Positions 1 through 31,930 of a stretch of 31,930 nt of DNA are shown here, in pieces; position 1 is the stretch's first letter; every line of letters starts with the position of its first letter. The notes under the pieces were generated by a model. It searched no databases. It was not told where the DNA came from and saw nothing but the letters and a program-made list of their open reading frames with translations. The DNA is from a virus. The DNA lies in IMG/VR virus record IMGVR_UViG_3300032083_000034, positions 1 through 31,930 of that record. One strand, written 5' to 3'. Position numbers and translations under genes: made by a program.

Positions 1-252
1 AATTATACATCAAAATATTATTATCAATTATTTCACCATCTGGCAAAGTTCTATTATCAAAAAATCCTTGTATCTGTGGTAGCTGTGGTTGTTCAAAGAA
101 ACTCTTACTATCTGCCAATACTTGCATAACAACCAAAGTCTTTGTTTGATTGTTGGCATCATATTTACCTTTATCACCCATTTTCTTGACTATCTTGTTG
201 GCTTTTTCTTGTTTAGTTTCTTTTACTTCTTCTTTAGGTTTTTCTTTTGTTT
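1..252. repeat. Left copy of terminal redundancy (circular closure)
   Basis: This stretch matches 31679-31930 at a constant offset of 31,678 with no indels. I count six substitutions, at 92, 98, 119, 209, 215 and 241. The repeat lies inside one open reading frame, so it is the overlap of a circular or terminally redundant map rather than a duplicated gene. Five of the six differences fall on third codon positions and four are silent, which points to real strain variation rather than random read error. Confidence 0.95.
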
Positions 253-1309
253 CTTCTACTGGTTCATCTACAGGTTCATCAACCTTTGCAACTTCAACTT
301 CTTCTACAGGTTCTTCTACAATTTCTTCTACGACTTCTTCCATTTCAACTTCTATAATTTCTTCCATAGGTGCTTCTTCTATTTTTATTTCTTCAATAAC
401 AGGTGCTTCTATTTCTGCTTCAACAGTTTCATAAGAAATTTCCATTGGTTCAGGTTCAATAGGTTCAAACATAATAAAATCATCTTGCTTAGAAACATCA
501 TTAAATTCAAAAACAGTTTCAGCTACATCAATTAATTCAGGTTGGTCTAAATTTAACGCAATAAAAGTTTCTAGCTTTGTAATTTCTTGGGTAATGATTG
601 TTTCAATAACATTATATAAAACATTAATAGTCACATCATCAAACAGAACACCAACCGCTAGATTGATATCCCTACCGCCTACTTCAATAATGAGATTAGT
701 TATCTTTCCTGAAAAATCAAAATTGCCTTGATATTGTTGATATCCACTATTAACGCCTGAAGCTGATAAAACATCAGTACCATTAAAGACTTCCGTATTT
801 CCATTTCTACCAATGACTTTCATATAAACACTATCTTGGTCATCTTGTTTATCTACTTTGATTGTATATTGAGTTTGACCACCATAATTAATATCTAGTT
901 CTGAAATATCTACTTGCTGATAAAAGGTGGTTAAATTAGCGTCTGTAATCTCAGCACATTTATCTGTGCCTAATTCATTACAATAACTACCAGAAGGCAT
1001 TGAGGCACTACCCTGTCCACCCCAATCAATATCCATATCACCCTCTTTAGATGTAGAAACAAATCCATTACTGCCATCTAATATATCTCCGCTATCTTTA
1101 TTGGTGACTGTGGTTGTTGTTGTGGTGGTTGTGATTGTTTCGGTTATATAGATACCTGTACTATCAGTATCTTCTTCAATGACTTTTTCTTTAGTAATTA
1201 TATCTGTCACTAAGGGAGTACATAAACCTATAGTGTCAGTGGTACATTCTTGAGCCTTAGAATATGAGAAGCAAACCAAGAGCCATAAGACCAAAATTTT
1301 TAAGACCAT
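1..1309 (-). CDS. Large exported acidic protein, N-terminal 436 codons (continues at 31623-31678)
   Basis: This gene runs off the left edge and finishes in the right-hand repeat (stop at 31623), giving 454 aa in all. The ATG at 1309 follows a clear AGGAG six bases upstream. Residues 1-20 form a signal peptide (hydrophobic core LVLWLLV, exit near SKAQ/E). Next come a Cys-containing segment, a run of eight threonines (60-67), a probable beta-sandwich (about 90-235), a long Glu/Pro/Val-rich acidic tract (about 275-350) and a Lys-rich, well-ordered C-terminus from about 365. The start overlaps the end of the upstream 186-aa gene by 53 nt. I do not recognise a named family. The signal peptide, acidic stalk and conserved end suggest a protein placed in the host envelope or on the virion. 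The frame was checked codon by codon with no internal stop. Confidence 0.85.
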   Translation of the reverse strand, partial: MVLKILVLWLLVCFSYSKAQECTTDTIGLCTPLVTDIITKEKVIEEDTDSTGIYITETITTTTTTTTVTNKDSGDILDGSNGFVSTSKEGDMDIDWGGQGSASMPSGSYCNELGTDKCAEITDANLTTFYQQVDISELDINYGGQTQYTIKVDKQDDQDSVYMKVIGRNGNTEVFNGTDVLSASGVNSGYQQYQGNFDFSGKITNLIIEVGGRDINLAVGVLFDDVTINVLYNVIETIITQEITKLETFIALNLDQPELIDVAETVFEFNDVSKQDDFIMFEPIEPEPMEISYETVEAEIEAPVIEEIKIEEAPMEEIIEVEMEEVVEEIVEEPVEEVEVAKVDEPVDEPVEETKEKPKEEVKETKQEKANKIVKKMGDKGKYDANNQTKTLVVMQVLADSKSFFEQPQLPQIQGFFDNRTLPDGEIIDNNILMYN

Positions 1310-1817
1310 CTATATCTCCTTCTTCTTTAACTGGTTCTGGTTTTTGTAATTGTGATTTTACAACGCTTCCTTCTGGAATTAATTTTTGTCCTTCTTCAGT
1401 CATCCAACCATCAACTGCGTCTTGTCCAATCTTACCGCCTATATATGGACAACTTGTGCCAGAAAAATGCATAGCATCCCAAACTCTTGCGTCTTGGCAT
1501 AAAATAGAAACACCTGCAACTTTCATTCCCATTGAGTAAAGGCTTCTAGCTAATTTAATACGTTCACAATTAAGGTCGGTTATTGTAGTGCCACCTGATG
1601 CACCGATATAAGGTAGTTGAATTGCACCGACACTAGATGTCTTACATACATCACTATTAACTATATTGACAGCAGGGGAATTAGCAGTAGGGGGAGTATT
1701 ATTAACGACAGTAGAACTTACTGTATTCGTTTCAGCTTGAACTTGAGTACAAATTAATAATGTAAATAAAAAAACTAATAAAGCAGGAATGAAATATGTA
1801 AACCAATCATTTCTCAT
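1257..1817 (-). CDS. Exported protein with C-terminal hydrophobic end, 186 aa
   Basis: The N-terminus has a charged start and a long hydrophobic stretch ending TQVQA/E around residue 28, a good signal peptide. The mature part is Thr/Asn/Pro-rich, then has a conserved-looking core with motifs NSDVCK, NCERIKLARSLY and ILCQDARVWDAM and four cysteines, which could pair in the periplasm. The last dozen or so residues are hydrophobic (FGLMALGLLLIF) and may anchor the protein. I recall similar proteins beside tail-fibre genes in marine phages, but no function is established. Its ATG at 1817 overlaps the fibre gene's stop by 4 nt and its end overlaps the next exported protein. A virion-associated or envelope role is inferred. 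Confidence 0.85.
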   Translation of the reverse strand: MRNDWFTYFIPALLVFLFTLLICTQVQAETNTVSSTVVNNTPPTANSPAVNIVNSDVCKTSSVGAIQLPYIGASGGTTITDLNCERIKLARSLYSMGMKVAGVSILCQDARVWDAMHFSGTSCPYIGGKIGQDAVDGWMTEEGQKLIPEGSVVKSQLQKPEPVKEEGDIDGLKNFGLMALGLLLIF

Positions 1818-4318
1818 CTCGCTACTACTGGAACACCTGATGATGTCAAAAATGGATTTTCTGCAAATGCCATGTAAATGTATGTTCTACCAGAGCCATT
1901 CCCTGCACCATCAGATGCTCTACATTTAAATCCATTAGATAAAATATCCATTAAAAGATTTGTATTAGTAGCTTCTGGAGCATTAGTACTGGGAATAAGT
2001 ATTGCAGAATTACTATCATTATTAAAATCTAGTCTTTTAGTATCTTGAATATGCCATTGTTCAGCTGCAGTTGAACATTTTCTCAATACCCAAGCAGGTC
2101 TAAAGCCTGTATAAACGAATGTTCCGTCAGCATTTCCATTACCTGTATAGCTACCCATTTTAGAGTATCCTTCTATTTCTGCGAAACAGTAGGCAACATA
2201 GTTTGAGCCACTATTATTCATTGTAGCTTCAGAACCTAAACCGATTACTGAAGTTGTATTGTTCTCAGGATTAAATACATCATATTGAGTTGTATAAGCA
2301 TCAGAAGAGTTTATTTTTATCCAAGCATTGTCTCCATATTGAGATTGTAAGGATTTGTGCCATGTACCCCAGTTGAAACCAGTATTAGTTCTTGACCTAC
2401 CAATAATCGCAGACGGAACTACGCCTAGACCATGACCAACAGTAGCACTAGCACCTGTTCCTGTATAAGTCACAATACTAAATCCTGCGGTTGTGTTAGC
2501 TTGAACTGTTGAGGTAATACTTCCGTCTGTGTTAGATGATGTAGTACCACCATTGGCACTCCATGACCATGCAACTCCTGTACGACCTGCTCCACCACCT
2601 GCCAAAGCATGAGGTAAGTTTGTTTTAAATGTTGCCCCATTACTTGTAAATTCCATATAATTACTAAATGTTTCTTCTGCAGTGGTTAAATTAGAAACTA
2701 ATCTTTTATTATCACCACTGGTGGTATTATGTAATTCATGCCTAGCGTCATAACTTCTACTTTTAGTCCAAAGAAAATCAGGCTTAAATCCTGTATTAAT
2801 AGTTATGTCTGAGCCTGTTGATGTCACAAGAGTAGTATTAAAATATTGACTACCATCATCAATCGTAGGGGATAATTCAGTTGCTAGGTTAGTAGTGTTC
2901 AAACATAAAAAGCCTGTTGGTGGAGCATAAAAAAAGTCACCCTCACCATTAGCATCAGAATTATTCTGAGCAGTTTTATTTCCTGCAAAAGAACTGTCTT
3001 GCCCAAAGTTTACAAGTTGTGCGGTATAACTTGAACTACTTCTATAAGATGCTGAATAAATAATTTTATCACCTGTAATACTAGAATAAGCAGGTGATGT
3101 ATCTGTGCTTGGATTACCTGTTATCCAAGTATTATTTCTTCCAAACCAAATTTTTCCATTATCTGAATCATAAGCTATTTGATAAATGTCGCCTACTGAA
3201 GTATCAATGCTCGTATCTTTGTTAGTTTCAGTGCCACTACTTACTGTCGCTATATAAGTATCGCCAGAATCTTGCCATACTACTGAATATTGTTCAGCAG
3301 TAAAATATCCATGTGTTCTTATATCATGAGCATTTTGAATCCCAAACAATCCAGATTGATTAGAAACATAGGTAATAACTGTTTCTGCATACCATTTACC
3401 ACTACCTTGAGGAATTAAAAAGTTTGAAGAACTACCACTCCAACCTGTGCTAGATGAAGGTGTAAATTGTAAATTACCTTGCGATAAAACTCCCATATGA
3501 CCATTTTGCCTCATTTGTCCTGCTAATGGGCTTAAAGTATTAAAATTTTTTGTAGGTGTATCTGGCATTTGGTCAGTAGATGCTAAATTAGTTGCAGTGA
3601 AGTTATTACCAAGACCACTAGCATCAGCACCGAGACTACCGCTATCTGAGAAGTCAAGTTTAAACCCATTCGTGCCATAACTACCTGAATATGCTTTTGG
3701 TTTCCATATACCACTATCATCAAATTCTCCAAAGTCAGTAGGTGCTTTTGCAGTTCCGTCTATTAAATAAACATCTGCTAAATATCCGTCAAATAAAGCT
3801 GAATCTCCAACTTGTTGTCTGCCAATTATATTGTTGTAGCCTGATACATTCATATAACTATCATAGTTAAGAGTAGGATAGTTTGCAGTTGCAAAACTTG
3901 TGACTTTTACTCCATTGACATAAAGTTCCAATCTATCTGCTTCAGTTGATTGGGTAGAGTCGTGTTTAATAAAAAAATGATACCAAGCTGAAACATCACG
4001 ATAAACTGCATTGGTTTCTAATCTATCTACATATCCACCAGAATAATTATAAAAATTAAATCTGTTTGTACTTTCATCAAAAAACATTGATGAATAATTA
4101 CTGGTATTATTTGATGTAAATATAAATTGTTGGCTACCACTTGTAGGAATATCACATCTTTTTACCCATGAACTCCAAGTCCAAGTTTTTCTATTACCTG
4201 CACTATTTGTTCTTGTTAAATAAGCACTATCATCATCATTAAATCTTAGGGAATTATCTATGTTATAAGGGCCTGCACTAACTGCTGTACCATTCCCACC
4301 TAGAATTGGGAATGTCAT
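1814..4318 (-). CDS. Tail fibre / receptor-binding protein with LamG-like and SPRY-like domains
   Basis: The 834-aa product is rich in Gly, Ser, Thr, Asn and aromatic residues, as in adhesive phage fibres. Residues about 20-200 look like a concanavalin-A/LamG fold (WTWSSWVK, RLELYVNGVKV, FDGYLADVYLIDG). A linker containing DFSDSGSLGADASGLGN follows. Residues about 300-470 resemble a SPRY/B30.2 domain (GKWYAETVI, WFGRNNTW). The C-terminal third carries GFKPDFLWTKSR, GRTGVAWSWSANGG and FRPAWVLRK, patterns I associate with the DUF7483 domain of marine phages. The gene lies at the end of the tail module and starts by TAATG overlap with the preceding gene. It probably binds a surface sugar or protein of the host. 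The receptor is unknown. Confidence 0.85.
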   Translation of the reverse strand: MTFPILGGNGTAVSAGPYNIDNSLRFNDDDSAYLTRTNSAGNRKTWTWSSWVKRCDIPTSGSQQFIFTSNNTSNYSSMFFDESTNRFNFYNYSGGYVDRLETNAVYRDVSAWYHFFIKHDSTQSTEADRLELYVNGVKVTSFATANYPTLNYDSYMNVSGYNNIIGRQQVGDSALFDGYLADVYLIDGTAKAPTDFGEFDDSGIWKPKAYSGSYGTNGFKLDFSDSGSLGADASGLGNNFTATNLASTDQMPDTPTKNFNTLSPLAGQMRQNGHMGVLSQGNLQFTPSSSTGWSGSSSNFLIPQGSGKWYAETVITYVSNQSGLFGIQNAHDIRTHGYFTAEQYSVVWQDSGDTYIATVSSGTETNKDTSIDTSVGDIYQIAYDSDNGKIWFGRNNTWITGNPSTDTSPAYSSITGDKIIYSASYRSSSSYTAQLVNFGQDSSFAGNKTAQNNSDANGEGDFFYAPPTGFLCLNTTNLATELSPTIDDGSQYFNTTLVTSTGSDITINTGFKPDFLWTKSRSYDARHELHNTTSGDNKRLVSNLTTAEETFSNYMEFTSNGATFKTNLPHALAGGGAGRTGVAWSWSANGGTTSSNTDGSITSTVQANTTAGFSIVTYTGTGASATVGHGLGVVPSAIIGRSRTNTGFNWGTWHKSLQSQYGDNAWIKINSSDAYTTQYDVFNPENNTTSVIGLGSEATMNNSGSNYVAYCFAEIEGYSKMGSYTGNGNADGTFVYTGFRPAWVLRKCSTAAEQWHIQDTKRLDFNNDSNSAILIPSTNAPEATNTNLLMDILSNGFKCRASDGAGNGSGRTYIYMAFAENPFLTSSGVPVVAR

Positions 4319-16846: not shown

Positions 16847-17125
16847 TTAAACTTTAAAACCTTTTTTCCAAGATTGCACTGCCCAATAAGCAGGGGATAG
16901 GTTTTTCTGTCCTTTGACTTTGGCTAATATAGGTCTAAATCTAGCCATAAAACTTCTTTGTCTAGCAGGGATATTTTTCTTTATAGAAAGATTAGGGTCG
17001 CCAAATCTGACTATTTTAACATTGCCAGTTGCTTTATTCTTCACATATACACCAAACTTCTTTGACTTGCTAGGTGTTCTAAATGGTTTATTCAGCTTAA
17101 CTTGACGACCTTTATAAGTAGCCAT
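16847..17125 (-). CDS. Small basic protein, DUF6321-like, without its usual cysteines, 92 aa
   Basis: The sequence contains VKLNKPFRTPSKSKKFGVYVK and VKIVRFGDPNLSIKKN. I recognise both as the signature of a small domain frequent in phage head modules, often fused to prohead proteases. In the forms I recall, the second half carries a histidine/cysteine cluster before a YW motif. Here that part reads FMARFRPILAKVKGQ...SPAYWAVQSW with no cysteine. It is strongly basic, starts by TAATG coupling to the 32-aa gene and ends 3 nt before the MuF-like ATG. The function is unknown. Confidence 0.75.
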   Translation of the reverse strand: MATYKGRQVKLNKPFRTPSKSKKFGVYVKNKATGNVKIVRFGDPNLSIKKNIPARQRSFMARFRPILAKVKGQKNLSPAYWAVQSWKKGFKV

Positions 17126-22020: not shown

Positions 22021-22072
22021 GCGTAGAGTGTACGCTAATTGCTTTATATCAATAATAGACACTATTAATCAA
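22021..22072 (-). promoter_or_regulatory. Probable late promoter with two palindromic operators
   Basis: On the minus strand, TTGATT (22072-22067) and TATAAA (22048-22043) are 18 nt apart, a reasonable sigma-70 promoter driving TerS and the virion genes. A 15-bp palindrome TAATAGACACTATTA (22053-22067) occupies the spacer and touches the -35 box. A second, GCGTA-GAGTG-TACGC (22021-22035), sits where transcription would begin. The -35 box overlaps the methyltransferase stop codon. A repressor or activator binding both sites would control the packaging and structure operon; the ribbon-helix-helix protein at 27163 is a candidate. Confidence 0.6.
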
Positions 22073-23208
22073 TTTATTTTTTCTGCCTTTTGTCCTGTGT
22101 ATTGTTCCCAACGCTTGACAATTACATCAATATACTTTGGGTCTAACTCCATCATATAGCATTTACGATTAGTTTTTTCACAAGCAATCATAGTTGAACC
22201 ACTACCACCAAAAAAATCTATAATAATATCATCTGATTTTGATGAATTTTTTAATGCTCTATCAATAAAAGCAACAGGTTTCGGTGTTGTATGACCTTTT
22301 AAATTTTCTTTATGAATTTTCCAAACAGAAGTTTGTTTTCTATCACCAAACCAAGAATGAGTGCCTGTTTTATTCCACCCATATAAACAAGGTTCGTGAA
22401 TAGATTGATAATCTGTTTGTGATAATGTTAATGAATTTTTTTCCCAAATAATCATTGAACTAAAATGAAAATAATTTCTGAATGTTTTATGAAAAATATC
22501 TGCACATCTATCAGAATGAAAACAATAAATAGAGGCACCAGATTTAGAAAATAATTGATAATGATAAAATGATTTTTCCAATAATTGTTCTAATCCTTCT
22601 CTATCATCATTATTAATACCTTTATAATCAACACCATATGGAGGGTCAGTAAATATCATATCTGCTTTTTGATTATCCATTAATTTTTCTAATAATTCTG
22701 TGTCAGTGCTATCCCCACACATCAATCTATGTTCACCAAGTTTATATATATCCCCTAGTTGTGCCTTTGGTTCTTCAGGTGTTTCAGGAACTGCATCTTC
22801 ATCTGTTAGTCCATCTTTCTCACCTACAATTATTTTCTCTAACTCATCAGGGTCAAATCCTGTTAGTTCTAAATCATAATTATTATCTAGTAAGTCAGTA
22901 AACTCTTGAATTAATAAACCCATATCCCAATCAGAATATTCATTGGTTTTATTATCAGCTATTCTATATGCCTTTGCTTTTTCAGGTGGTAAGTCAGCAA
23001 TGGTGACAGGAATAGTTTTTAAGTTTAAAGACTTGGCGGCTTCATACCTACCATGTCCAACTATAATAACTCCTGCTCTGTCAACTACTATGGGTTGTTG
23101 GAAACCAAATTCTTTAATTGATTGTGCAACTTTATTTATATCGTATTTATGTCTCGGATTTTTTTGATAAGGTTTGATGTCGCTTATCGCTTTATCTTGT
23201 ACTATCAT
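22069..23208 (-). CDS. ParB-like domain fused to beta-class DNA methyltransferase
   Basis: The 379-aa protein has an N-terminal ParB/Srx-like domain (1-105; IKPYQKNPRH, FGFQQPIVVD, GHGRYEAAKSL). After a linker it has a methyltransferase domain with catalytic TDPPYGVDYKG (DPPY at 188-191) and SAM-binding FFGGSGST (332-339). The DPPY-before-FxGxG order is that of the beta class of N6-adenine or N4-cytosine enzymes. No partner restriction endonuclease is adjacent, so it is an orphan enzyme that likely protects phage DNA or marks it for packaging or replication. It is linked by TAATG to a 59-aa gene upstream and precedes the late promoter. Confidence 0.93.
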   Translation of the reverse strand: MIVQDKAISDIKPYQKNPRHKYDINKVAQSIKEFGFQQPIVVDRAGVIIVGHGRYEAAKSLNLKTIPVTIADLPPEKAKAYRIADNKTNEYSDWDMGLLIQEFTDLLDNNYDLELTGFDPDELEKIIVGEKDGLTDEDAVPETPEEPKAQLGDIYKLGEHRLMCGDSTDTELLEKLMDNQKADMIFTDPPYGVDYKGINNDDREGLEQLLEKSFYHYQLFSKSGASIYCFHSDRCADIFHKTFRNYFHFSSMIIWEKNSLTLSQTDYQSIHEPCLYGWNKTGTHSWFGDRKQTSVWKIHKENLKGHTTPKPVAFIDRALKNSSKSDDIIIDFFGGSGSTMIACEKTNRKCYMMELDPKYIDVIVKRWEQYTGQKAEKIN

Positions 23209-26639: not shown

Positions 26640-26936
26640 TTAGTCATTTGATAATATACTATGACCCCTATTAGTCATGCATTTATTTACCATTTGTTTA
26701 TATGAATAATCCCACTTGTCTGGTAGCCAAAGAAGTGAGGGTCGCACATACCAGTTATAGACGACTTTACTAGCCTCAATAACATCTGATGTATTCTCGT
26801 TTGCGATTGCTCGGCAAGTTTGCAAATCATCATTAAAACGATAAGCAACTTTTTCACCTTTATTACCCCTGCTGTCATTTATCGGAGTGTAAGTGCAAGA
26901 TACTATTAGCAACATACTCACTAATAACTTTAACAT
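26640..26936 (-). CDS. Probable lipoprotein, 98 aa
   Basis: The N-terminus MLKLLVSMLLIVSC ends in a good lipobox (I-V-S-C14), so cleavage and lipidation at C14 are expected, followed by TYTPINDSRGN. The mature part is helical with two more cysteines (LQTCRAIANENTSDV; VNKCMTNRGHSIL). This CTYTP..D..G and KC..NRGHS arrangement is one I recall from other marine phages, function unknown. GGAGG lies 5-6 nt upstream of the ATG. As an early-type envelope lipoprotein it might block superinfection. That is an inference. Confidence 0.8.
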   Translation of the reverse strand: MLKLLVSMLLIVSCTYTPINDSRGNKGEKVAYRFNDDLQTCRAIANENTSDVIEASKVVYNWYVRPSLLWLPDKWDYSYKQMVNKCMTNRGHSILSND

Positions 26937-28947: not shown

Positions 28948-29078
28948 TAGTGCATTAAGTTATGTCCAAAATAGACAATCACTAACACAACAATTAACTT
29001 CCATAGATTAGACCAAGTCCAATAAGGGTCTGCCCAATCAAGGAGTGCTTCTATAGGTTTCCAAATAAGTTTTTTCAT
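28947..29078 (-). CDS. Small membrane protein in lysis block, 43 aa
   Basis: Read directly: MKKLIWKPIEALLDWADPYW, TWSNLWKLIVVLVIVYFGHN, then LMH. Trp-rich amphipathic residues precede one transmembrane helix (LIVVLVIVYFG). The ATG overlaps the holin stop by 4 nt. A second holin, antiholin or spanin-type helper is possible given the position. Confidence 0.75.
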   Translation of the reverse strand: MKKLIWKPIEALLDWADPYWTWSNLWKLIVVLVIVYFGHNLMH

Positions 29079-29488
29079 TTGCTTATACCTTTCTGTTTCT
29101 CATACGTTCTGAGTGTAGCCATGCCCAAAAGGCTCATGACCAATGGCATTAAAACACCCATATCTAAAGTTGGCAATGGTAAAGTTTCAACTTCAAATAC
29201 TGCAAGGAAAAACATAATAAATTGTTTTAAAACAAATTCCCAAAAGATTGCTAAGGCACAACTGAAACCAATCAGGGGTCGCCAAATTCTTTGTAGTAGT
29301 CCACCTAAACCTGTTGCAGTAGATTTAGCATCAGCAAGATTTATATCTGTCTGTGCTTTGTTTAATGCGTTATCTAATTCTTTGAGTTTTATTTTTGCTT
29401 GTGCTTTTTCTTCTTCTGATGTGTGGAGTTCATCAACTATCTTTCCAACACTATCTACTAACCCACCACCTAATAATTTATTAATCAT
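29075..29488 (-). CDS. Holin, GTA-holin 3-TM family
   Basis: The 137-aa product has an N-terminal amphipathic part and charged coiled region (SEEEKAQAKIKLKELDNALN). Three hydrophobic segments follow: RPLIGFSCALAIFWEFVLKQ, IMFFLAVFEVETLPLP and LMPLVMSLLGMATLRTYEKQ. The WRPLIGF and L..LLGM...RTYEK.KG motifs define the 3-TM holin family (DUF3154-like) typical of marine phages and gene transfer agents. It starts by TAATG overlap with the endolysin, forming the lysis pair. Confidence 0.9.
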   Translation of the reverse strand: MINKLLGGGLVDSVGKIVDELHTSEEEKAQAKIKLKELDNALNKAQTDINLADAKSTATGLGGLLQRIWRPLIGFSCALAIFWEFVLKQFIMFFLAVFEVETLPLPTLDMGVLMPLVMSLLGMATLRTYEKQKGISK

Positions 29489-30495: not shown

Positions 30496-30693
30496 TTACG
30501 AATTTTCATATTCTGTTGCATCAACACAAGCAAAGAAGTATTTGCGAATATTCTGTTCATCTAGCATTAACTTTAGATAACTTCCATTCATTTTGCAATC
30601 CTCTACGGATTTATGTTTTTCATTAATGGTAATACATTCTCCTGCTATGCACATATACCCCAAAAGGAATATAGAGGAGATGTTAATCACCAT
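30496..30693 (-). CDS. Small exported cysteine-containing protein, 65 aa
   Basis: The N-terminus VINISSIFLLGYMCIAGECI is hydrophobic like a short signal peptide or membrane anchor. The rest holds C33 and C56 (SVEDCKMNG; KYFFACVDATEY) plus two cysteines near the hydrophobic stretch, suggesting disulphides in the periplasm. It overlaps the upstream spanin-like gene by 11 nt. The function is unknown; a partner of the membrane coiled-coil proteins is possible. Confidence 0.7.
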   Translation of the reverse strand: MVINISSIFLLGYMCIAGECITINEKHKSVEDCKMNGSYLKLMLDEQNIRKYFFACVDATEYENS

Positions 30694-30874
30694 TTAAATG
30701 TTTTTCTATCCAAATAATTTTTTCTTTAATGACTGCAATATCTTGTTGCATTTCTGAAATTGAATCAGCTTTTTTTTCTACTGCTTCTAATCTAGTTGAC
30801 CACATTCCCCAAGTCATTGCTAGAGAAGCAATGATAGCTATGTAAGGCAATATGTTTTTTAGTTCTATGTTCAT
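30683..30874 (-). CDS. Membrane-anchored coiled-coil protein, spanin-like, 63 aa
   Basis: A transmembrane helix (LPYIAIIASLAMTWGMWSTR) is followed by a coiled coil (LEAVEKKADSISEMQQDIAV; KEKIIWIEKHLNGD). This is the layout of inner-membrane spanins and of a small protein family common near phage lysis genes. With a TAATG start and the endolysin and holin nearby, a spanin-type role in disrupting the outer membrane is plausible. No clear outer-membrane lipoprotein partner is adjacent. Confidence 0.65.
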   Translation of the reverse strand: MNIELKNILPYIAIIASLAMTWGMWSTRLEAVEKKADSISEMQQDIAVIKEKIIWIEKHLNGD

Positions 30875-31185
30875 TACATTGTGTTTTCTGTTATTCCAGT
30901 AGTATTTAGCTTAACTTGAGCCTGTTTGTCAAATGTTTCTGCTATCTCAATATCTTTTGCATATTTCTCTTTATATTCTGCTTTTGCTCTTTGCTTTCTT
31001 GCGACATCATCCATAGTCATTCCTGATATTTCTCTATGTAAGGCTTGGTTTTTTTCTGCCCAATTATCTAATCTTTCAAGATAGAGTTGTTCTCTAATTT
31101 TAGCTTCTTTCACTTCTTCCCTTGCTTCCCTTAATTCTTTTTTTGCTTTCTTTAGTTGTTCTTGTAGTTCATTTTGTGTTGCCAT
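30874..31185 (-). CDS. Charged coiled-coil protein, 103 aa
   Basis: Residues 5-50 form a long coiled coil (QEQLKKAKKELREAREEVKE; AKIREQLYLERLDNWAEKNQ). It then reads MTMDDVARKQRAKAEYKEKY and ends without hydrophobic parts. It is soluble and probably oligomeric. It lies between two membrane coiled-coil proteins, so a common complex is possible. No family is recognised. Confidence 0.75.
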   Translation of the reverse strand: MATQNELQEQLKKAKKELREAREEVKEAKIREQLYLERLDNWAEKNQALHREISGMTMDDVARKQRAKAEYKEKYAKDIEIAETFDKQAQVKLNTTGITENTM

Positions 31186-31632
31186 TTATTTTACTCCTGA
31201 TAATGGGTTGTTTAATGCTTTTCTTATCTTATCATCTATTTCTTTTTCTAAAATCTTAAAATCTTCTGAAATTTCTCTTTCATTAGCTTTTACTCTGTCC
31301 TCAATATCATTGACTACCTTATCTATGGCTCTTACATCTTGCTTAATTTCTTTTAAATCTTCTCTAATTGTTGTTTGCATTTGACTAGCTACATCATTGA
31401 CTAGGCTAACTTCTTCTAAAACTGAGGATATTTCTGATTTAAGAACTGCTATTTGTTCATCATATTTACTCATGTCAGGGGAAATAAAATCGTTCACTCT
31501 TTGTTGAAGTGTCTGATAATCCTTCCAAAATTCAAATGCACCCCATAATCCACCACCAAGAGTTCCTAATAAAGAAAATATAATAAAGAGTTTTCCACCC
31601 TTCATAGAAATTCCCTTATATTCTACTTCCAT
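31186..31632 (-). CDS. Membrane protein with long periplasmic or cytosolic coiled coil, 148 aa
   Basis: The start MEVEYKGISMKGGKLFIIFS leads into a transmembrane helix with glycine-zipper spacing (LLGTLGGGLWGAFEF), then a long heptad-rich coiled coil (KSEISSVLEEVSLVNDVASQ; DVRAIDKVVNDIEDRVKANE). I recall YKGISMKGG-starting proteins in related marine phages, supporting the ATG at 31632 over the internal one. It overlaps the 454-aa gene stop by 10 nt. A bridging or receptor-blocking envelope role is inferred. Confidence 0.78.
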   Translation of the reverse strand: MEVEYKGISMKGGKLFIIFSLLGTLGGGLWGAFEFWKDYQTLQQRVNDFISPDMSKYDEQIAVLKSEISSVLEEVSLVNDVASQMQTTIREDLKEIKQDVRAIDKVVNDIEDRVKANEREISEDFKILEKEIDDKIRKALNNPLSGVK

Positions 31633-31930
31633 TGTAAATCTACCAATTCATTGTGTCCTAAATCATTATTCATAAACAAATTATACATCAAAATATTATT
31701 ATCAATTATTTCACCATCTGGCAAAGTTCTATTATCAAAAAATCCTTGTATCTGTGGTAGCTGTGGTTGGTCAAAAAAACTCTTACTATCTGCCAAGACT
31801 TGCATAACAACCAAAGTCTTTGTTTGATTGTTGGCATCATATTTACCTTTATCACCCATTTTCTTGACTATCTTGTTGGCTTTTTCCTGTTTGGTTTCTT
31901 TTACTTCTTCTTTAGGTTCTTCTTTTGTTT
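31623..31930 (-). CDS. C-terminal part of the 454-aa exported acidic protein
   Basis: This is the second copy of the gene that begins at 1309. It carries the Lys-rich linker (KANKIVKKMGDKGKYDANNQ), the ordered end (TKTLVVMQVLADSKSFFDQP) and the true stop at 31623-31625. The ATG at 31859 is internal, since the frame stays open to the window edge. It differs from the left copy by one D/E and one K/E change plus silent substitutions. Confidence 0.88.
   Translation of the reverse strand, partial: TKEEPKEEVKETKQEKANKIVKKMGDKGKYDANNQTKTLVVMQVLADSKSFFDQPQLPQIQGFFDNRTLPDGEIIDNNILMYNLFMNNDLGHNELVDLQWK
31679..31930. repeat. Right copy of terminal redundancy
   Basis: It aligns without gaps to 1-252 (six substitutions). 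Merging the two gives a circular unit of 31,678 bp with a single intact 454-codon gene across the junction. Confidence 0.95.

Follow-up and report, generated by a model that had tools for sequence, protein, structure and literature searches.

A stretch of viral DNA (IMG/VR record IMGVR_UViG_3300032083_000034; 31,930 nucleotides, referred to here at its full length as the window) carries a run of genes for exported and membrane proteins on both sides of the junction of its ends, which raises the questions of which of these genes belong together and what they do for the phage. The initial annotation had proposed six consecutive, mostly overlapping genes at 30496-31930 as one envelope-directed system. 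All six reading frames are present on the minus strand, in the reading order A to F (Table 1), and their placement between the tail fibre and the nuclease and lysis genes was borne out: the tail fibre gene (1814-4318) directly precedes A, and beyond F come a nuclease-like gene and a gene of 59 aa, and then those for a lysozyme (PF00959) and a 3-TM holin (PF11351). The span given for the block contains F, E, D, C and the end of B and leaves out A and most of B (window 1-1817). Overlap was found for A/B (53 nt), B/C (10 nt), D/E (1 nt) and E/F (11 nt), whereas C and D merely abut.

Because B runs across the ends of the record, its status as a gene depends on the join. Positions 1-252 and 31679-31930 of the window are identical at 246 of 252 bases, so the genome closes to ∼31.7 kb. 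The six mismatches in the repeat probably reflect strain variation in the assembly, and may be why IMG/VR does not class the record as circular. Three related contigs (L093-L095; ∼90-91% DNA identity to the window) continue unbroken across the join, and in L094 an intact B of 454 aa is 91.4% identical to that of the window. Thus, B is a genuine gene rather than a product of misassembly.

Table 1. Positions of the block genes, the adjoining lysis genes and two small protein families found with the module (window coordinates unless a locus is named).
Feature	Position	Strand	Description
A	1257-1817	minus	186 aa; signal peptide, T/S/N/P-rich stretch, ∼100-aa 4-Cys domain, hydrophobic C-terminus
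B, N-terminal and middle part	1-1309	minus	signal peptide, carbohydrate-binding-like beta-sandwich (∼70-233), acidic linker (∼285-363)
B, C-terminal end across the record join	31623-31678	minus	454 aa in all with the 1-1309 part
C	31186-31632	minus	148 aa; one transmembrane segment, ∼115-aa coiled coil predicted by sequence, C-terminal NPL
D	30874-31185	minus	103 aa; soluble coiled coil predicted by sequence; accessory, lineage-specific
E	30683-30874	minus	63 aa; N-terminal membrane segment and short coiled coil; accessory
F	30496-30693	minus	65 aa; small exported Cys protein; accessory, lineage-specific
Endolysin (phage lysozyme)	29488-29952	minus	PF00959, E 3.8e-10; phrog_7
3-TM holin, GTA type	29075-29488	minus	PF11351, E 3.9e-11; phrog_3427
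Small basic protein family ('KYKGRNVKLNKP')	window 16847-17125; L004 5393-5665; L011 4228-4506; L175 6628-6879		
efTM examples	L234 6817-7134; L218 6912-7241; L295 5429-5767; L011 3870-4226		

A, B and C are conserved in fixed order far beyond chance in the IMG/VR loci examined. A scan with A showed the module to be common in marine phage contigs (at least 594 A-encoding stretches, 80 loci kept), a scan with C gave 67 relatives, and adjacency was then scored with profiles built from both scans. B followed A in every one of the 69 A-loci that extend 400 nt or more beyond A, C followed A in all 46 loci with at least 3 kb beyond A, A preceded C in all 35 loci with at least 2.3 kb of flank, and B preceded C in 54 of 57 loci, the exceptions (L152, L154 and L155) representing a second form of the module; these loci are partly non-independent, since L013 and L110 are one contig and many others are close relatives. 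Among the examined loci with enough flank, none had only one or two of the three genes.

The same could not be said of the other three genes. Among 102 loci with at least 1.5 kb after C, D was found after C in 29, E in 27 and F in 23, and all three together in just 7. The proposal of a six-gene unit was therefore abandoned, and the co-occurrence that it implied held for A, B and C only, with D, E and F as lineage-specific accessories. A relative of E also adjoins C in phage HTVC115P (gp48, 54% identity), and members of the F family have an N-terminal hydrophobic stretch (25 of 25) and a median of 4 Cys.

The three-gene module also occurs in named phages. A was matched by tblastn in 11 of 50,697 phage records, comprising the Pelagibacter phages HTVC115P, HTVC202P, HTVC023P, HTVC033P, Baldr and Mosig, MedDCM-OCT-S28-C10, the Roseobacter phages CRP-207 and CRP-810, and two Manatee Spring records. 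In each of the 11, A is followed on its own strand by an exported middle gene and a membrane coiled coil resembling C, which ends in NPL in ten records and in NPM in MW202675. The middle gene is B-like in eight (weakly so in MW202481) and is an unrelated helical protein in CRP-207, CRP-810 and MW202675. By name or group these carriers belong to the podo- and myoviruses; the tail genes of the window suggest a siphovirus. In a collection of genome contigs A was found at nine loci, all on MAG or single-cell contigs by title, so that A looks virus-borne.

Joint inheritance was also evident from sequence divergence. Across 72 dereplicated loci, pairwise distances were correlated between A and B (0.53), A and C (0.62) and B and C (0.68), values reached by 0 of 500 permutations. 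In the 29 loci with a lysozyme, the within-module correlations (r = 0.73, 0.70 and 0.65) compared with 0.48, 0.49 and 0.61 between module genes and lysozyme. In the 16 loci that also had a holin, however, the correlation of C with holin (r = 0.83) exceeded that of B with C (r = 0.72), so C is co-inherited with the holin as strongly as within the module.

The A family corresponds to phrog_20531, which has no assigned function. Its N-terminus is hydrophobic in 130 of 130 members, with a signal-peptidase-I-like site in 99 and a hydrophobic C-terminal stretch in 87; the window's A lacks a lipobox, and a lipobox-like N-terminus was seen in only 3 of the 130. An 82-sequence alignment shows no variation at two of the four conserved cysteines (C58 and C84) and very little at the other two (C107 and C123); in an 11-sequence alignment (A1) all four are invariant. 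The predicted structure (mean pLDDT 78.6) is confident for about residues 81-160, and neither a sequence profile search nor fold comparison of the model gave a match in the PDB. In both CRP-207 (L011 1725-1940) and MW202675 (L012 886-1101) a small lipoprotein is encoded just before A; the one in CRP-207 matches the A profile and phrog_20531 and, judging by this similarity, is possibly a lipid-anchored relative of the Cys domain of A.

B is likewise exported, with a hydrophobic N-terminus in 117 of 120 family members and a signal-peptidase-I-like site in 103; the window's B has no lipobox, and 8 of the 120 N-termini are lipobox-like. In a model of the L094 homologue, residues 33-251 mostly had pLDDT >90, the acidic linker fell below 50 and the C-terminal helices were weakly modelled. 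The fold of this head matches the sugar-binding domains of Fbs1/Fbs2, CBM16 and a Klebsiella phage tailspike domain (VIA-align Z 13-14, over 136-155 residues at rmsd 2.4-3.5), suggesting that it has a glycan-binding-type fold, with binding itself a prediction from the model. Comparison of B with the PDB by sequence gave five weak matches, four of them on the linker and C-terminal part. Window-type and podovirus-type B proteins have the beta-sandwich head in common (hhalign probability 99.5).

C begins with a short N-terminus and a membrane segment near residue 15, which holds the Gly-rich stretch GTLGGGLWGAF and is followed by a median of 121 residues with coiled-coil character as predicted from sequence and weak profile matches. 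The tripeptide NPL at the C-terminal tip is invariant in 67 of 67 C sequences, and in a wider set NP[LM] was present in 120 of 128, the remaining 8 being a different, Rz-like gene. Family medians for Cys per protein are 4 for A, 5 for B and 0 for C.

The second form of the module shows the same bracketing by A and C. In L154, four exported genes (p303, p166, p137 and p143) lie between A and C. IMG/VR scans gave 110 relatives of p166 and 82 of p143, of which 80 were kept from each, and the exact order A-p303-p166-p137-p143-C was found in 108 of these 160 loci, some contigs being counted twice; the remaining loci had the same order cut by contig ends, or an added Rz-like gene. A was upstream of p166 in 107 of 107 loci with room, and C downstream of p143 in 145 of 149. 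The first protein, p303, is probably the counterpart of B: 37 loci have a p303 that matches the B profile (best E 1.1e-7), and over its final 33 columns it aligns with the C-terminus of B (hhalign probability 47, E 1.9e-4). All p166, p137 and p143 sequences begin with a hydrophobic N-terminus (153/153, 157/157 and 157/157, respectively), and none of the three matched a named family. The idea that cyanophages have similar genes was dropped, as a tblastn search of the phage collection with p166 and p143 gave no match at 1e-4. Many second-form loci also have beside C a small protein with, by eye, an EF-hand-like start and a membrane part (efTM; 59 loci matched). PHROGs give it no named function, and the label 'holin-like' was unsupported. 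A lysis-type neighbour was recorded in 23 of 59 second-form loci, 22 of which have efTM and 8 an Rz-like gene; since the holin label is unsupported, counts that include efTM were not used, leaving Rz-like genes near the module in 8 of the 59.

One explanation for an envelope module in this position, also raised by the initial annotation, is a role in lysis. We searched 35 whole records for three lysis markers (holin PF11351, endolysin phrog_7 and Rz-like phrog_739 at E <1e-10). Of the 23 marker-bearing records, 14 have A no more than 5 kb from a marker (6.1 expected, p 4e-4), and when the window's six relatives were collapsed, the figure was 8 of 17 (4.0 expected, p 0.026). The module was more than 10 kb from every marker in 8 of the 23 records and 5-10 kb away in one more, and 12 of the 35 had no marker from these three families. 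Position is thus not decisive, given these distant and marker-free records. In Mosig, a holin-type gene is directly beside the module, 431 bases from A, and in S28C10 the module is flanked by the terminase and by a small membrane gene that looks holin-type by eye, a slot that in the sister phage HTVC200P holds other small membrane and coiled-coil genes. Two A genes are present in the 52.8-kb record of locus L083 (G010), and a strong Rz-like spanin gene lies 653 bases from one of them.

We therefore compared the module with the two-component spanins typified by lambda Rz/Rz1. C has the putative layout of an i-spanin, an N-terminal membrane segment followed by a predicted coiled coil, and a 28-column stretch across its membrane segment resembles the Rz-like family that occurs next to the module (hhalign probability 79); like spanin genes, the module is often, not always, near holin and endolysin. 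In contrast to spanins, the A-B-C unit has no o-spanin lipoprotein by the lipobox test, and it has two large exported partners instead of one short lipoprotein. C also differs in having no Cys as a rule, and about 4% of two-component spanins are without periplasmic Cys for intermolecular disulfides, according to the portion of PMC6139136 consulted. Nor does A have the layout of a unimolecular spanin, combining a signal peptide with a hydrophobic C-terminus and no lipobox. The window's A, B and C matched no spanin PHROG (D matched one at E 0.35), and PF03245 was above cut-off in 0 of 11 records; because spanin families are very diverse, the lack of a family match says little. On the minus strand of the window, a single lipoprotein candidate was found: a 98-aa protein with the lipobox LIVSC (26640-26936), which lies ∼4 kb from the block and matches no PHROG at E 0.01.

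A canonical Rz-like gene co-exists with the module in 4 of the 35 records (phrog_739, E <1e-13); weaker phrog_739 matches (E 1e-4 to 1e-2) were taken as coiled-coil noise, the control search being positive in 11 of 14 genomes. In L066, L068 and L074, A-B(-C) comes directly after a lysozyme, an Rz-like gene and a lipoprotein ORF, in that order, and this Rz-like gene matches a named spanin family. The autographivirid pelagiphages HTVC019P, HTVC031P and HTVC200P have a ∼120-aa membrane coiled coil and a ∼70-aa small protein before the terminase, which share with A-B-C of their sister phage S28C10 both the slot and the character of small envelope proteins, but show no relation to A, B or C; HTVC115P has both sets, so they are not mutually exclusive. 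Replacement of a spanin by A-B-C is weakened by both observations. Thus, the proposed lysis role keeps partial positional support and loses its simplest version, and we conclude that A-B-C stands on its own as a module, is often found in the company of lysis genes and does not simply replace a spanin.

The signal peptides of A and B, the single N-terminal membrane segment of C and the joint inheritance of the three genes make it probable that A, B and C form one phage-encoded envelope complex. Our preferred reading of its role, put forward tentatively and at less than even confidence, is that this complex is made with the late genes and helps the last steps of host lysis. As subunits of one complex, C would be anchored in the inner membrane and extend its coiled coil into the periplasm, the glycan-binding-like head of B would hold peptidoglycan or an outer-membrane glycan, the acidic linker of B would span across so that its C-terminal domain could meet C at the NPL tip, and A would complete the complex. 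In the least certain step, the complex might pull on or open the outer envelope once holin and endolysin have done their work, either alongside a canonical spanin or in its place. More broadly, and held with somewhat greater caution, the A-B-C core may be a phage envelope apparatus of an undescribed kind, exchanged as a cassette among unrelated marine tailed phages and reworking the infected diderm envelope as an additional lysis machine or a surface device. A and C with its NPL tip would then bracket an interchangeable exported middle, namely the putative glycan-binding B, B with three exported proteins, or the unrelated helical protein of the Roseobacter phages.

We considered the possibility that the module instead serves superinfection exclusion or receptor masking, with exported proteins blocking other phages or stopping released virions from sticking to debris and the head of B occupying surface glycans. 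T5 Llp, T4 Spackle and P22 SieA are single superinfection exclusion proteins; they resemble A-B-C in being phage-encoded envelope or periplasmic proteins and differ from this three-gene set in acting singly. Consistent with exclusion, A, B and C are all envelope proteins, A directly follows the tail fibre gene in the window's lineage, and the B head, whose fold also occurs in phage tailspike domains, differs between lineages, a variation that a changing surface target would explain no less well than peptidoglycan. However, the same A and C are found amid very different neighbourhoods in podo-, sipho- and myovirus backgrounds, unlike a receptor-specific mask, and the B profile matched one ORF per locus (138 matches in 138 loci) and not the tail fibres. 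We regard exclusion as less probable than a role in lysis and as the most serious of the alternatives.

Another explanation is surface display, in which A and C would anchor or assemble an exported fibre or adhesin (B, or B with p166, p137 and p143) on the surface of the infected cell; keeping cells together, as proposed for pelagiphage curli, would be one such use. The second form, with three more exported proteins between B and C and A and C flanking, agrees with this idea, as does the appearance by eye of p166 as pilin-like and p137 as chaperone-like. In contrast, neither the PDB nor Pfam gave a pilus chaperone or pilin match to the profiles of p137 and p166, and the unit has no gene recognisable as usher- or pore-like. 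Pelagiphage curli or type VIII secretion modules (CsgG, CsgF and CsgA/B), as described in the portions consulted of PMC7029224, PMC9599517 and PMC9004378, are likewise a multi-gene envelope set common to Pelagibacter podo- and myoviruses, for which lysis or aggregation was proposed, but no sequence relation to A-B-C was seen. CsgG (PF03783) was found in 0 of the 35 module records, the control search being positive in 4 of 14 genomes, which argues against both a curli identity and display of this type. HTVC008M, which carries csgF/csgG according to the same portions of these papers, was not among the phage records matched by A, and nothing annotated in its primase region recalls A-B-C. On the o-spanin and CsgG tests together, A-B-C is classed with neither spanins nor curli, and we consider surface display to have a rather low probability.

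It is very improbable that A, B and C are virion or morphogenesis components, carried in the particle or aiding its assembly. The genes do lie among late genes and adjoin the tail fibre or terminase in several phages, but A and B have signal peptides and C has a membrane anchor, features unusual in proteins assembled in the cytoplasm, and no structural family was matched above noise, apart from a weak match of one C-like protein to a tape-measure family (E 0.0015), as coiled coils give. That the three are unrelated neighbours held together by operon inertia alone, as the compact, collinear genomes of small marine phages and the presence of other genes between B and C in some loci might suggest, is scarcely tenable, because the same A-B-C order recurs beside different neighbours (terminase, primase/reductase, tail fibre and lysis genes), which requires retention as a unit.

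The suggestion that this is an undescribed envelope-directed multi-gene system agrees with the literature searched, in which we found no description of A-B-C; most subscription papers and preprints lay outside its scope. The module is also absent from the portions consulted of PMC9599517, PMC9004378, PMC12753301, PMC9038755, PMC11288001, PMC6139136 and PMC7029224. Among its cultured carriers are phages of Pelagibacter, one of the most abundant bacteria in the sea, in which the module genes are nearly all annotated as 'hypothetical' or misnamed. A lysis role, if true, would show how marine phages in which no Rz-like gene was found with the families searched cross the outer membrane, and a surface role, if true, would represent a widespread way of changing infected cells. 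Because HTVC023P, HTVC033P, HTVC115P, HTVC202P, Baldr, Mosig, CRP-207 and CRP-810 are named, culturable carriers, A-B-C can be tested.

Several existing annotations of module genes look wrong. In CRP-810, A is annotated as 'OmpA family protein', and C is named 'lysozyme' or 'putative lysozyme' in CRP-810 gp51 (L175 6204-6626) and CRP-207 gp73 (L011 3292-3873). In MW202481, A and C (L008 5875-6381 and 7251-7625) are unannotated; the place of A is covered by annotations of short antisense genes, and B bears the name 'transport protein tonB'. The small basic protein family of Table 1, recognised by eye, recurs in module carriers; it adjoins the module in HTVC202P and lies close after C in CRP-207 and CRP-810. 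Elsewhere in the window, the minus-strand gene at 22069-23208 encodes a 379-aa protein that, by eye, has a ParB-like domain fused to a DNA methyltransferase.
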